From a virus: DNA of 25,223 nt. Made by a program: the position numbers and the translations under genes. This document shows positions 3,347 to 12,412 of this stretch, piece after piece (within the stretch, counting starts at the first letter, position 1; every line of letters starts with the position of its first letter). The notes beneath the pieces are model-generated. The model had not been told where the DNA came from and searched no databases. It was given only the letters and a program-made list of their open reading frames with translations. The stretch is from IMG/VR virus record IMGVR_UViG_3300027777_000138, positions 1 through 25,223 of that record; one strand, given 5' to 3'.

Positions 3347-3547
3347 GTGCGATTCAACAAAGAAAATATGAAAGCTCACATAGTAAAAGAGCTAATTTAC
3401 CTTGAGAAAAAATGGGGTTTTGACCCCAGAAATGGATACGATCAAGTAAAGGATAGTGATCTTTATCGGGTCATGGCTTACGGAGAATATAAGGCTTTAA
3501 AAAATTTGTGGGATGCAATTGAATACAACAACATTGGAGAAGAATAA
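3347..3547 (+). CDS. Hypothetical protein (66 aa), first gene of rightward operon
   Basis: The GTG start is preceded 7 nt upstream by a strong GAGGAGGG ribosome site, and this decides the start. The product (MRFNKENMKAHIVKELIYLE then KKWGFDPRN) looks helical and soluble. I do not recognise the family. It is separated by 2 nt from the next gene. Confidence 0.6.
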   Translation: MRFNKENMKAHIVKELIYLEKKWGFDPRNGYDQVKDSDLYRVMAYGEYKALKNLWDAIEYNNIGEE

Positions 3548-3549
3548 TT

Positions 3550-3885
3550 ATGAACATCACAACAAGCGAGCCAATTTTAGGAATGACCCCAGATTATAAA
3601 TGGGTCATTGTCATGCCTGATGGTAAGAACTATAAAAAGTCATTCAGTCCAGCGTATGACTTGAAGTTTCTTGATTTTGAACAGGCTAAATATTTTCTAT
3701 CCAATATGGAATCAAAAAAGAAACATAAGGTAAAAATTAGCCTTGAGATTGAATTAGAGGTTTCAACAGATTATTTTGAGAAGTTATGCGATCAACTCTC
3801 TTTGGAGGTTGTTCGTAATTGTTTTAAAAATCACAATCGCACCATTAATTCAGAATCAATGACCATTATCAAGGAGGAAGTATGA
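3550..3885 (+). CDS. Hypothetical protein (111 aa)
   Basis: The product starts MNITTSEPILGMTPDYKWVI. It has an N-terminal half that looks like short beta strands (WVIVMPDGKNY) and a middle alternating charged strand, KHKVKISLEIELEV, near residues 58-71. No family is recognised. It ends in an ATGA overlap with the next gene, and an AAGGAGG ribosome site for that gene lies inside its 3' end. Confidence 0.6.
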   Translation: MNITTSEPILGMTPDYKWVIVMPDGKNYKKSFSPAYDLKFLDFEQAKYFLSNMESKKKHKVKISLEIELEVSTDYFEKLCDQLSLEVVRNCFKNHNRTINSESMTIIKEEV

Positions 3886-4181
3886 CTTATAAAAACGAAT
3901 TTTCGGATTTTGCTTACGATTTGCCCAATTTGGGCGATGGCTGGGAGGATAACTCTTGGCATAACGATTCTTGTCCATCCTTAGACTATCCGCTAGGCGA
4001 TGGCAAGATGTTGCGCATTTGGTTTCAAGAATCTAACCCTGAAGAGCGGGAATGCGGGGGCAAGCAGTTTGTTTTAGTAATTGGTGAATATGGCGATTCT
4101 GATCATCTTATGGAATCGGACGATTTAGACGAAGTTTTAGCTTATATCAAGGATCACAATTTAACTAAGGAAAAATCATGA
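3882..4181 (+). CDS. Hypothetical acidic protein (99 aa)
   Basis: This is an acidic, aromatic-rich product (DGWEDNSWHNDSCPSLDYPL near residues 19-38, then KMLRIWFQESNPEERE). It is coupled to both neighbours by ATGA overlaps and has a good AAGGAGGA ribosome site. The composition resembles small phage early proteins that mimic DNA or inhibit host factors, but no specific family can be named. Confidence 0.6.
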   Translation: MTYKNEFSDFAYDLPNLGDGWEDNSWHNDSCPSLDYPLGDGKMLRIWFQESNPEERECGGKQFVLVIGEYGDSDHLMESDDLDEVLAYIKDHNLTKEKS

Positions 4182-4642
4182 CTACATATGCAATTTTTAG
4201 CAGTAAACATGACTCTGAAATATGGGTCAATCTTAAGGTCGGAACGCTCGAAAGCATGGAGACAGTTCGGGAATTAGTTATAGAAGAGATGAACAACGAT
4301 CCAAGCCTTGAGCGTGGATATGTTGAATCCTATCCATTCTTTCAAGCTGATTGGGTAGTAATGGGCGGAAGAATAGAGACTCCCTTTGATTTCAATCAGA
4401 TTTTAGAAGTAGAAAACGATCATGGTACTTTTGAAGAATCAAAACAATTTGAATGCTTTTGGGGTGATGGTTATCGGGCTGACGATAACAAATCTATTCT
4501 CGCTTATTACGATCAGGACTTTTTCAATCAAGATCGGGGATATGGGGAAATGGAATGCCACATGATTTCCACTTTAGAAAAAGGCGATAGTTTAGATATT
4601 AGCGATGTAAGTGGTCATCATTGGGTAAGGCGGATTAAATGA
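4178..4642 (+). CDS. Hypothetical protein (154 aa)
   Basis: The N-terminus, MTTYAIFSSKHDSEIWVNLK, alternates polar and hydrophobic residues like beta strands, and tryptophan and glycine are frequent later (FFQADWVVMGGRIET; FECFWGDGYRADD). No recognised domain. ATGA overlaps join it to the genes on either side, so it belongs to the same transcript. Confidence 0.6.
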   Translation: MTTYAIFSSKHDSEIWVNLKVGTLESMETVRELVIEEMNNDPSLERGYVESYPFFQADWVVMGGRIETPFDFNQILEVENDHGTFEESKQFECFWGDGYRADDNKSILAYYDQDFFNQDRGYGEMECHMISTLEKGDSLDISDVSGHHWVRRIK

Positions 4643-4851
4643 AAATCTATTACGCACACGCACAGAGTCGGAATTTTGATTTCCAAGCCTTTGGATTGAC
4701 TTATAACGAGGCGATTAAGACTCTTCATAAAGGGCTTAAGAAACACGCTAAACAATACAACCTAGAGCCGAAATGGTTCGAGGAATGGGCGGATATAAGG
4801 GTGGAAGAACTAGAGGGGGGCATAGCTTATCGAGATCGCTCGCCACTATAA
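4639..4851 (+). CDS. Hypothetical protein (70 aa) just upstream of the ribozyme
   Basis: The product begins MKIYYAHAQSRNFDFQAFGL and has a helical middle (EAIKTLHKGLKKHAKQYN). The family is unknown. Its TAA stop (4849-4851) directly abuts the first base of hammerhead stem I, so a ribosome terminating here would cover the ribozyme's 5' strand. The MKIYY start is shared with the 54-aa gene at 5219, a weak hint of paralogy. Confidence 0.6.
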   Translation: MKIYYAHAQSRNFDFQAFGLTYNEAIKTLHKGLKKHAKQYNLEPKWFEEWADIRVEELEGGIAYRDRSPL

Positions 4852-4901
4852 GCAAGTCTGATGAGGCTTTATTAGCCGAAACCCCGAAAGGGGTCATTTG
4901 C
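4852..4901 (+). ncRNA. Hammerhead self-cleaving ribozyme (type I)
   Basis: All parts of a minimal hammerhead are visible in order. Stem I 5' strand GCAAGT (4852-4857); core CTGATGA (4858-4864); stem II GGCT/AGCC (4865-4868 with 4874-4877) closed by a TTATT loop; core GAA (4878-4880); A15.1 at 4881 pairing with U16.1 at 4894; stem III CCCC/GGGG (4882-4885 with 4890-4893) closed by a GAAA tetraloop; cleavage nucleotide C at 4895, giving the canonical GUC site; stem I 3' strand ATTTGC (4896-4901). Stem I is six pairs including one G-U. Because stem I is the open helix, this is type I. It lies between two genes of the rightward operon, and the predicted cut between 4895 and 4896 leaves a 5'-OH end 29 nt before the next ATG. 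Activity is inferred from the fold. The peripheral loop contacts that speed natural hammerheads cannot be judged by eye. Confidence 0.9.
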
Positions 4902-4924
4902 AAACAACCAAAAGAGGAAACAAA

Positions 4925-5215
4925 ATGGCACAGACTCAAATTTTCAGAGGCGTTGAAACGACCACCTATTGCGACCAAGATGGGGCGCTTGTGGGTGTAT
5001 ATCGGGGGACTCCTGTAGTTCGCCAACTAGGGAACAAGATCACGCTTAAAACGGGCGGTTGGAAGTCTCGCACCACTAAATTAAGAATGAATCAGTTCTC
5101 TAGATCTTATTGTCAAAATCGGTTCGGGGTAACTCAAGAAAATTATGAATGGTTTTTAATTCTTAATGATCAAAAAATCCCGTTTGATGGCGATCAGATC
5201 TCTTTCGAGGTGTGA
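4925..5215 (+). CDS. Hypothetical protein (96 aa) downstream of the ribozyme
   Basis: ATG at 4925 is chosen because AGAGGAAA sits 6-12 nt upstream; an in-frame TTG at 4898 would lie inside the ribozyme. The product starts MAQTQIFRGVETTTYCDQDG and reads as a mainly beta, basic protein (KITLKTGGWKSRTTKLRMNQ). No family is recognised. Its mRNA would acquire a new 5' end 29 nt upstream after hammerhead cleavage, still keeping the ribosome site. Confidence 0.65.
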   Translation: MAQTQIFRGVETTTYCDQDGALVGVYRGTPVVRQLGNKITLKTGGWKSRTTKLRMNQFSRSYCQNRFGVTQENYEWFLILNDQKIPFDGDQISFEV

Positions 5216-5218
5216 TCT

Positions 5219-5383
5219 ATGAAGATTTATTACTATTGCGGAATCACTCGACAAGAGCGGGTTTTACACGCAAGCAAACATTTTGCAAAAGATCAGGCAT
5301 TTTTTTGGGGCTACCTTGAGCGGTTAGGGGATAGCTTACATTTAATCGAACTAGATGAGGGGGAAACATGGGCTACACCATAG
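5219..5383 (+). CDS. Small hypothetical protein (54 aa)
   Basis: The ATG lies 3 nt after the previous TGA. The product starts MKIYYYCGITRQERVLHASK and ends in an acidic LIELDEGETWATP. Unrecognised. The CDS overlaps the next gene by 16 nt. Its opening MKIYY resembles the 70-aa protein at 4639. Confidence 0.5.
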   Translation: MKIYYYCGITRQERVLHASKHFAKDQAFFWGYLERLGDSLHLIELDEGETWATP

Positions 5384-5526
5384 ACGATCTATTTATCTCT
5401 GTTAATGATATATACGAACAATACGACGAGGGCGAGATTCCGTTGGATGAGGCTAACGACATCTTAAAACGATGTTGCGAGTCCTTTATTCAAGCGCTAG
5501 AGGAAAAGGCTCGCTTGGCAGCATGA
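5368..5526 (+). CDS. Small hypothetical protein (52 aa)
   Basis: A GAGGGGGAAAC ribosome site precedes the ATG. The product, MGYTIDDLFISVNDIYEQYD then EIPLDEANDILKRCCESF, looks like two or three acidic helices. No family recognised. It is the last gene before the structured gap at 5527-5703. Confidence 0.5.
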   Translation: MGYTIDDLFISVNDIYEQYDEGEIPLDEANDILKRCCESFIQALEEKARLAA

Positions 5527-5703
5527 ATTAAATTTAGCCTGAAAAATCTCAGATTTGGGATTTTTTGGAGTAAGTTTTTTGTTTTTCCGTTTTCTAGTGC
5601 GTAGTAATACGCCAAAAAAGGCCAGAACCAGGCTTGAGGCGGTATTTTACTGGTTTCCGGATTGTAATTCGTAGCACAAGGCTAAATTTTAAAAGGAGGA
5701 GTC
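5527..5703 (+). other. Dyad-rich intergenic leader, possible structured RNA
   Basis: This 177-nt gap in an otherwise gapless operon contains nested dyads. An 11-bp perfect outer pair is AAATTTAGCCT (5530-5540) with AGGCTAAATTT (5679-5689). Inside are a hairpin GCGTA-GTAA-TACGC (5599-5612) with a GNRA-type tetraloop, an AACCAG/CTGGTT pair (5626-5631 with 5650-5655), and an AAAAATC/GATTTTT pair near 5542-5565. The outer 3' arm ends directly before the AAAAGGAGGA ribosome site of the next gene. This could be a regulatory leader, a processing site or an internal terminator/promoter region. No known RNA class is recognised. Confidence 0.45.
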
Positions 5704-5871
5704 ATGCAAAAGAAGTGGTTTGATATTTTTTTTAAAGGCGAGTACTTAGGCGCTATGTTTTTGCCAGCGTCTAAACCAAAAGCAGTGCAAGAAGTGTGTA
5801 ATAGGCTTGAAAAAACAGGCTTGCAGTATGTTTCATCAGATTTTTTACTAAAAGAAATGGAGAAAGTATGA
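5704..5871 (+). CDS. Small hypothetical protein (55 aa)
   Basis: A very strong AAGGAGGAGTC ribosome site precedes the ATG. The product, MQKKWFDIFFKGEYLGAMFL then a helical KPKAVQEVCNRLEKTG, has an alpha/beta look but no recognised family. It ends in an ATGA overlap. It is the first gene after the dyad-rich gap, so it is the one most likely controlled by it. Confidence 0.55.
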   Translation: MQKKWFDIFFKGEYLGAMFLPASKPKAVQEVCNRLEKTGLQYVSSDFLLKEMEKV

Positions 5872-6080
5872 AATATAAAGTATATCTAATTGACAAAACT
5901 TTAGAGGCAGATACGCCTGTTGATTTGCACAACTTAGTATGGGATTGGCAAATCGACCACCAAATATCGGAGGAAGATTGGACTAGCCCAGCAGTCTGGT
6001 TCGGTAATGAAGTAATAGGCGTAATTAATTACAACGGGAGGATATGTGCTGAACAAGAGAGAATTAAGCAAAAAGGCTAA
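5868..6080 (+). CDS. Small hypothetical protein (70 aa)
   Basis: The product starts MKYKVYLIDKTLEADTPVDL, a beta-strand-like opening followed by a tryptophan-rich middle (LVWDWQIDHQISEEDWTSPA). Unrecognised. It is coupled upstream by ATGA and overlaps the next gene by 35 nt; that gene's ribosome site GGGAGG lies within its 3' end. Confidence 0.55.
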   Translation: MKYKVYLIDKTLEADTPVDLHNLVWDWQIDHQISEEDWTSPAVWFGNEVIGVINYNGRICAEQERIKQKG

Positions 6081-6240
6081 TGCCATGAAAGACGTTCAAG
6101 AATCAATTGATTACTTAACCGCAAAGAAAGAGGAGTACTCAGGGATTGCCCTGGCTATTGTAGAAAAACATTTAGGTTATGCTTTACTTAAAAAGGAGGA
6201 GTTATGCAAATCAACAGAGAATACTTTATCAACCAAATAG
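6046..6240 (+). CDS. Small hypothetical protein (64 aa)
   Basis: GTG at 6046 is preferred because GGGAGG lies 5 nt upstream; an ATG at 6085 has no comparable site. The product is lysine- and glutamate-rich and helical (SIDYLTAKKEEYSGIALAIV). No family recognised. It overlaps the next gene by 37 nt. Confidence 0.5.
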   Translation: MLNKRELSKKANAMKDVQESIDYLTAKKEEYSGIALAIVEKHLGYALLKKEELCKSTENTLSTK

Positions 6241-6443
6241 AACAATATCTACACACAATGGAGAAAGATGAGATGAAACCATATGCCGTCAAGGTTAGCT
6301 ACAGAGGAACAAAATATTATTATTTAGATGCGCCCGATGAGTGCGAGGCTGAAGAAATAGCTTGCGAGATGTTTGAGAGTGAGTTTAAGCTAGATAATGT
6401 TGAAACAGAAGGCTATGCCGAGGGAGACAGTGACGATGAATGA
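6204..6443 (+). CDS. Small acidic hypothetical protein (79 aa)
   Basis: AAAAAGGAGGAG precedes the ATG. The middle reads YAVKVSYRGTKYYYLDAPDE, then a helix with CEAEEIACEMFESE and a very acidic tail ending EGDSDDE. The pattern suggests a small alpha/beta fold of unknown role. It overlaps the next tiny gene as ATGAATGA. Confidence 0.55.
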   Translation: MQINREYFINQIEQYLHTMEKDEMKPYAVKVSYRGTKYYYLDAPDECEAEEIACEMFESEFKLDNVETEGYAEGDSDDE

Positions 6444-12209: not shown

Positions 12210-12300
12210 AGCCTTCAACTGTTCCCTTTTGGAGCCACAGCACCCGCCAGTCGTACGTAGAATCGGCACTAGCTTCGCCACCGATATTGCGCTGTTGCAT
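12199..12300 (-). CDS. Possible tiny protein (33 aa) in the leader
   Basis: The frame MQQRNIGGEASADSTYDWRV continuing LWLQKGTVEGSPR starts 4 nt after another short frame's stop and follows CTGGGGGTAAG, a usable ribosome site. The sequence looks protein-like (YDWRVLW). It could be a small gene of the operon or a leader peptide for the downstream gene. Confidence 0.35.
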   Translation of the reverse strand: MQQRNIGGEASADSTYDWRVLWLQKGTVEGSPR

Positions 12301-12304
12301 CTAC

Positions 12305-12412
12305 TTACCCCCAGTAGCGCTTCAGTCTATTCCGCTGGTGTTTATTGAATGCCGCCCAGAATGACCGGCAGAAATGAAAAAACCCCATACAACTGGAGTC
12401 TATTTTGGTCAT
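12305..12412 (-). CDS. Possible tiny protein (35 aa) in the leader
   Basis: The frame is MTKIDSSCMGFFHFCRSFWA then AFNKHQRNRLKRYWG, basic and aromatic. The frame stays open upstream to 12529, but that part looks unlike protein. There is no clear ribosome site. Its stop is 4 nt from the ATG of the 33-aa frame, which hints at coupling. Confidence 0.25.
   Translation of the reverse strand: MTKIDSSCMGFFHFCRSFWAAFNKHQRNRLKRYWG

Follow-up and report, generated by a model that had tools for sequence, protein, structure and literature searches.

In the window, i.e., the whole 25,223-nt stretch of viral DNA analyzed here (IMG/VR record IMGVR_UViG_3300027777_000138), we found a complete type I hammerhead ribozyme between two phage genes, and we consider it likely that this element is functional and acts as RNA punctuation. 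The reading draws on the anatomy of the element, its statistical reality, its conservation with compensatory changes, its strand bias and its placement, and from these we infer both cleavage in vivo and a benefit.

Anatomy of the hammerhead and its gene setting

The 50-base element reads GCAAGU-CUGAUGA-GGCU(UUAUU)AGCC-GAA-ACCCC(GAAA)GGGGU-C-AUUUGC. Its parts and the two flanking genes are as follows, with the basis of each assignment in parentheses.

4639-4851 (+): upstream gene, 70 aa, family F0 (open reading frame; relatives in L003, L054, L152, L153 and L155)
4852-4901 (+): type I hammerhead ribozyme, whole element (type I descriptor, covariance model, isolated fold)
4852-4857 (+): stem I, 5′ strand GCAAGU (sequence, fold, descriptor)
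4858-4864 (+): catalytic core CUGAUGA, C3 to A9 (sequence, descriptor)
4865-4877 (+): stem II, 4 bp (4865-4868/4874-4877), with loop UUAUU, which fits the family pattern U-N-A-N-U (sequence)
4878-4880 (+): core GAA, G12 to A14 (sequence)
4881-4894 (+): stem III, 5 bp (4881-4885/4890-4894), with GAAA tetraloop (sequence, fold)
4895/4896 (+): predicted cleavage site after C17, GUC^A (sequence and knowledge of the hammerhead family)
4896-4901 (+): stem I, 3′ strand AUUUGC, which would be the 5′-OH start of the downstream mRNA (sequence, fold)
4902-4924 (+): rest of the 29-nt leader, with a conserved A directly after stem I and the purine-rich ribosome-binding site AGAGG at 4913-4917 (sequence, family statistics)
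4925-5215 (+): downstream gene, 96 aa (Pfam PF23790 Kyano_Gp96 / PHROG 554)

All residues of the hammerhead core (C3 U4 G5 A6 N7 G8 A9 and G12 A13 A14) are in place, surrounded by three helices of 6, 4 and 5 bp, with the A15.1-U16.1 pair present as the outermost pair of stem III (A4881-U4894). Stem I (4852-4857/4896-4901) includes one G-U pair, and the cleavable H17 after U (NUH) is supplied by GUC at 4893-4895. Both the 5′ and 3′ ends lie at the open stem I and loops close stems II and III, i.e., the type I arrangement. In isolation, 4852-4901 folds exactly as drawn (−18 kcal/mol), with 1 of 200 shuffled sequences folding as well. A first-pass annotation of the window had described a complete type I hammerhead with all core elements in order, a GUC site, a GAAA-capped stem III and a six-pair stem I, and both sequence and descriptor bear this out. 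Its account of the junctions was also accurate: the UAA stop of the upstream gene (4849-4851) abuts stem I, its last A being the conserved A on the 5′ side of that stem, and the predicted cut leaves a 29-nt leader up to the ATG at 4925.

The hammerhead sits within a (+) strand gene run (3347-6443), so it is placed on the same strand as, and co-directionally with, the surrounding phage genes. We found no promoter-like or terminator-like site in the interval between the upstream and downstream genes, which are therefore probably co-transcribed; stem III was considered as an intrinsic terminator and rejected, being absent from the terminator-like sites found. The upstream 70-aa gene had no match in Pfam or PHROGs, and comparing the operon region with named phages by BLAST gave no match. 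It is plausible that the run is early, given its small genes without assigned function, divergent from the terminase. Within it, a 154-aa gene at 4178-4642 (+) appears to have arisen by fusion of two small genes: in many relatives the match is confined to residues 1-79 or 89-154, and in L008 another small gene lies between the two halves. Elsewhere in the window, a phage-carried Betaproteobacteria-1 RNA (RF02932, 90.1 bits) occupies 12242-12366 (−), with a ParB-like gene on one side and a small gene on the other, on the same strand; this RNA hints at a betaproteobacterial host.

Statistical support and covariance models

The type I descriptor, applied to both strands of the window, found no site besides 4852-4901, and no further hammerhead, whatever its type, was revealed there by the descriptors for types II and III or by the covariance model. 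Among 300 Markov sequences of window length, searched on both strands, the type I descriptor (stems of at least 3 bp) matched once in all, and stems of 6/4/5 bp occurred 0 times. We then scored the window, with filters off, against our own covariance model (R1), built from 42 aligned phage hammerheads with the window element and every relative left out. The element scored 67.7 bits (E 4.9e-16, a rough value owing to short calibration), and the next match reached 9 bits. The same model matched the Pseudomonas phage PaP3 at 44029-44116 (−) with 36.6 bits, which we take as the published PaP3 hammerhead, and the cultured Pelagibacter phage Jormungand with 51.3 bits.

A search with the Rfam hammerhead models, which the first-pass annotation had put forward as a check, gave no hammerhead match in the window at gathering thresholds (Rfam 15). 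Relaxed thresholds yielded just a mis-registered Hammerhead_3 match (19.4 bits) at the element. The published PaP3 hammerhead region likewise fails (17.1 bits), none of 15 hammerhead-bearing loci reached the gathering score, and some family members scored 27-30 bits with Rfam Hammerhead_1 against a cut-off of 34. Because the published PaP3 hammerhead is missed as well, we attribute the Rfam result to a weakness of those models here, so that this check sets an invalid bar; the covariance-model match comes instead from R1. As far as sequence can establish it, the window element is confirmed as a real, complete type I hammerhead.

A large family of phage hammerheads

The pattern used to search for the family fixes just CTGATGA, CGAAACCC and GGGTC (the core plus a portion of stem III), leaving stems I and II free. 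At least 120 viral-contig stretches matched it, and among the matches listed 101 of 121 loci displayed the complete type I fold even with the extra-U variant still excluded; IMG/VR thus holds well over 100 similar elements. A stricter pattern was found at 57 of 120 viral loci among the matches listed versus 6 contigs among 84,980 bacterial and archaeal species, each represented by one genome, a contrast that is a lower bound, the viral count being a minimum. Two of these six bacterial contigs (L165 and L166) carry real hammerheads, in 3 copies; the other four showed no hammerhead fold and were rejected.

Conservation was assessed in 82 non-redundant members in which stem I has 6 bp and the stem II hairpin 13 nt. 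Stem I was directly preceded by A in 82/82 and directly followed by A in 80/82, the first position of loop II was U in 82/82 and its third was A in 74/82, and the stem III loop was GNRA or UNCG in 63/82. The window hammerhead has all the family features, i.e., both flanking As and the U.A of loop II. The flanking As are not part of the minimal ribozyme; they occupy the positions expected for the contact that stem I makes with loop II in fast hammerheads, and together with the loop II pattern they suggest that the usual tertiary contact may be formed. A Watson-Crick pseudoknot in which loop II would pair with the stem I tails (AUAA/UUAU in the window) was rejected, with pairing no higher than for shuffled tails across the 82 members. 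The core, H17 and the putative tertiary-contact positions are fixed across the family, and the stems vary with pairing kept. Pair counts revealed strong covariation that is partly circular; because the rows were selected by a pairing-demanding descriptor, we give the pattern result and the orthologs more weight than these counts.

Placement is uniform, with a shared order of stop, A, ribozyme, A, ribosome-binding site and start. Specifically, an upstream reading frame ends between −80 and +25 of the ribozyme start in 161 of 168 copies (versus 40% at random places), and a Shine-Dalgarno sequence and start codon follow within 60 nt in 120 of 168 (versus 20% at random), mostly at 16-31 nt. In the 46 loci with at least two copies, all neighboring pairs (88/88) share a strand, with a median spacing of 660 nt. 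The result is a large, under-annotated family that Rfam does not report and whose cultured carriers are Jormungand and PaP3; its uniform geometry and these carriers make the punctuation or insulator idea directly testable.

Orthologs and the exchange of downstream genes

Relatives of the upstream gene were found in other IMG/VR contigs. A hammerhead directly follows them in L003 (the same contig as L158), L155-157 and L054 and lies one gene later in L153/154. The first-pass annotation had held that unpaired changes in the stems and core of related phages would count against the element; the four orthologs (L003, L054, L153 and L155) have no broken pair, and two differences are compensatory. 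In L003, stem II pair 3 is G-C versus C-G in most orthologs; in L153, stem III pair 2 is U-A versus C-G in most. In addition, the G-U of stem I becomes A-U among the orthologs, and stem III of L003 gains one A-U pair. In several orthologs A9 and stem II are separated by an additional U, and an extra core nucleotide is reportedly tolerated in a viroid hammerhead. Such a nucleotide in a viroid hammerhead is the subject of a study listed as reference 28 of PMC6155905.

No hammerhead match was obtained in L152, where the upstream gene has a close homolog, in 13 more distant relatives, or in the named phages DSL-LC04 and HTVC027P, which have related terminases; the element is therefore not essential to the lineage. 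L152 joins the upstream gene straight to F1, skipping the intervening genes. Among five versions of the locus the upstream gene is constant (with one extra gene in L153), and no two have the same gene immediately behind the hammerhead. That one site is occupied by the element in some close relatives and lacks it in others also makes the punctuation or insulator idea directly testable.

Proposed function as RNA punctuation

Once transcribed, the ribozyme would split the polycistronic message of the phage, with the cut falling between C4895 and A4896. The upstream part would be left ending in the GAAA-capped stem III with a 2′,3′-cyclic phosphate, and stem III would thereby cap its 3′ end. The downstream message would begin with a 5′-OH and AUUUGC, followed by AAACAACCAAAAGAGGAAACAAA before the AUG, so that the 29-nt leader with its own ribosome-binding site may serve as a short, standard leader for the downstream gene. 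The likely benefit is that stability and translation of the neighboring genes would be separated without a host nuclease. In phage T7, early mRNA is processed by RNase III. The benefit proposed here would be much like that of such processing and of the synthetic RiboJ insulator.

An extension of this reading, which we offer tentatively, is that hammerhead and ribosome-binding site form an inherited expression module, a "natural RiboJ," marking exchangeable slots in phage operons. If so, the upstream sequence would be cut off, any newly acquired gene would be expressed alike, and phages would swap genes at these slots.

Alternative explanations

The gene exchange could also mean that the hammerhead and ribosome-binding site are mainly a recombination joint or a small mobile module for swapping neighboring genes, with cleavage secondary. 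The five relatives with different downstream genes and the direct joining of the upstream gene to F1 in L152, which is without a hammerhead, point in this direction, as does L096 (4247-5331), where two different hammerhead and ribosome-binding-site modules alternate, each twice, with identical ribozymes and unrelated genes after them. A mere homology joint, however, would have no need of pairing kept in variable stems or of a fixed core, H17 and putative tertiary-contact positions, nor does it fit the strand always being that of the neighboring copies (88/88). We regard this explanation as unlikely, and a role as recombination joint is compatible with RNA punctuation.

Folded with its native flanks, the window hammerhead behaves less simply than in isolation: the minimum-energy fold breaks stem I, which is displaced by an upstream hairpin (4825-4853) or by CAGACU of the next gene, which pairs with AGUCUG, and a fold constrained to keep the hammerhead is ~6 kcal/mol worse. 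Minimum-energy folds ignore tertiary contact, translation and co-transcriptional order, and as a model result the broken stem I is a real caution for the window copy.

The hairpin at 4825-4853 lies in the upstream coding sequence and would be opened by a ribosome, and it thus bears on the idea that ribosomes finishing the upstream gene control ribozyme folding, so that cutting reports translation. The overlap of stop and core might be read in the same way: in L003 and L155 the upstream-gene stop is the UGA of the catalytic CUGA, and 17 of 103 six-bp members use this internal UGA as a stop. However, the competing hairpin was not kept in the orthologs as read, and stem I and the core would more likely be covered than freed by a ribosome that terminates there. 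Across the family, the stop ranges from before stem I to inside stem II, as expected if the hammerhead simply fills the intergenic gap, and the compact spacing of phage genes by itself brings a stop next to stem I. When upstream flanks (30 nt) were swapped among 101 members, stem I was affected to the same degree (0.495 with native versus 0.463 ± 0.03 with swapped flanks). With native and swapped flanks equivalent, selection for or against inhibitory upstream structure was rejected. The first-pass annotation had suggested that ribosome-coupled cleavage splits the mRNA; the element is indeed placed to cut between two genes, but the swap does not support the coupling, which we consider quite improbable.

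The flanked folds of the window could equally indicate a decayed, inactive relic that folds otherwise in the natural transcript. Yet the core retains every invariant residue, the cleavable GUC and the putative tertiary-contact residues are likewise intact, and the orthologs carry compensatory changes. Moreover, with 30 nt of upstream sequence included, all stems survive folding in only about half of the family, so the fold test cannot separate a relic from a working copy, and we judge decay very unlikely. Finally, although many viral contigs carry 2-7 copies flanking genes, it is extremely improbable that the element belongs to a pair that excises and circularizes a gene-length RNA through ligase joining of 5′-OH and cyclic-phosphate ends, since the 25-kb record, which may be incomplete, holds one copy only and Perreault et al. 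sought spliced or circular products and found none (PMC3088659).

Relation to known systems

Hammerheads that punctuate phage transcripts are not new, and the novelty implied by the first-pass annotation was too high. In 2011, Perreault et al. described hammerheads flanking single genes in prophages and proposed that they cut phage transcripts into gene-length mRNAs; three prophage arrays were cleaved in vitro, the Agrobacterium tumefaciens array also when transcribed in Escherichia coli (PMC3088659). A 2017 review noted the persistent tie to phages and called the role of hammerheads there a still open question (PMC6155905), and a 2023 paper found hammerheads enriched near Mu-like phage genes (PMC10085705). 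The window element is a further example of this known or proposed type. As far as the literature was searched, the geometry at viral-metagenome scale, the Rfam failure and the constant ribozyme with exchangeable downstream genes are new.

In core and topology, the element agrees with Rfam Hammerhead_1 (RF00163, clan CL00010). The PaP3 hammerhead (PMC3088659) is, like that of the window, intergenic within a phage gene run, and our match there is followed by a ribosome-binding-site-like AAGGA and a start codon in the same arrangement; unlike the window element, it was listed in 2011 among variants with core changes, has a longer and different stem III and lies among unrelated genes. The prophage clusters of A. 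tumefaciens (the ardA triple), Azorhizobium and C. scindens (PMC3088659) likewise place hammerheads between single genes but are in bacterial genomes near integrases. RiboJ (PMC6206723), derived from the sTRSV ribozyme, works by a similar logic: set in front of a ribosome-binding site, it cuts the leader back to a standard end. In contrast to the window element it is engineered, follows a promoter rather than lying between genes, and leaves an extra hairpin on the downstream RNA.

Other hammerhead candidates in phage genomes

In three separate contigs (L051 2359-2452, L056 1974-2067 and L122 7026-7119), stem III of the hammerhead ends in a large loop of 34-37 nt; this loop includes a repeated motif (like ATGAGACCGCAAA) and is retained from one contig to another. 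The marine Pelagivirus L160 contains two type I and one type III hammerhead candidates (30011-30634 and 32722-32781), and Jormungand (L159) contains one type I hammerhead (38219-38279). The hammerheads of these two Pelagiviruses lie upstream of MarR and integrase genes, and L159 also has ArdA upstream, the gene set reported around the A. tumefaciens hammerheads. Streptomyces phage Janus (L161) displays a type II-like hammerhead candidate at 44092-44151 (−), and R1 gave additional weak matches at other places on that strand.
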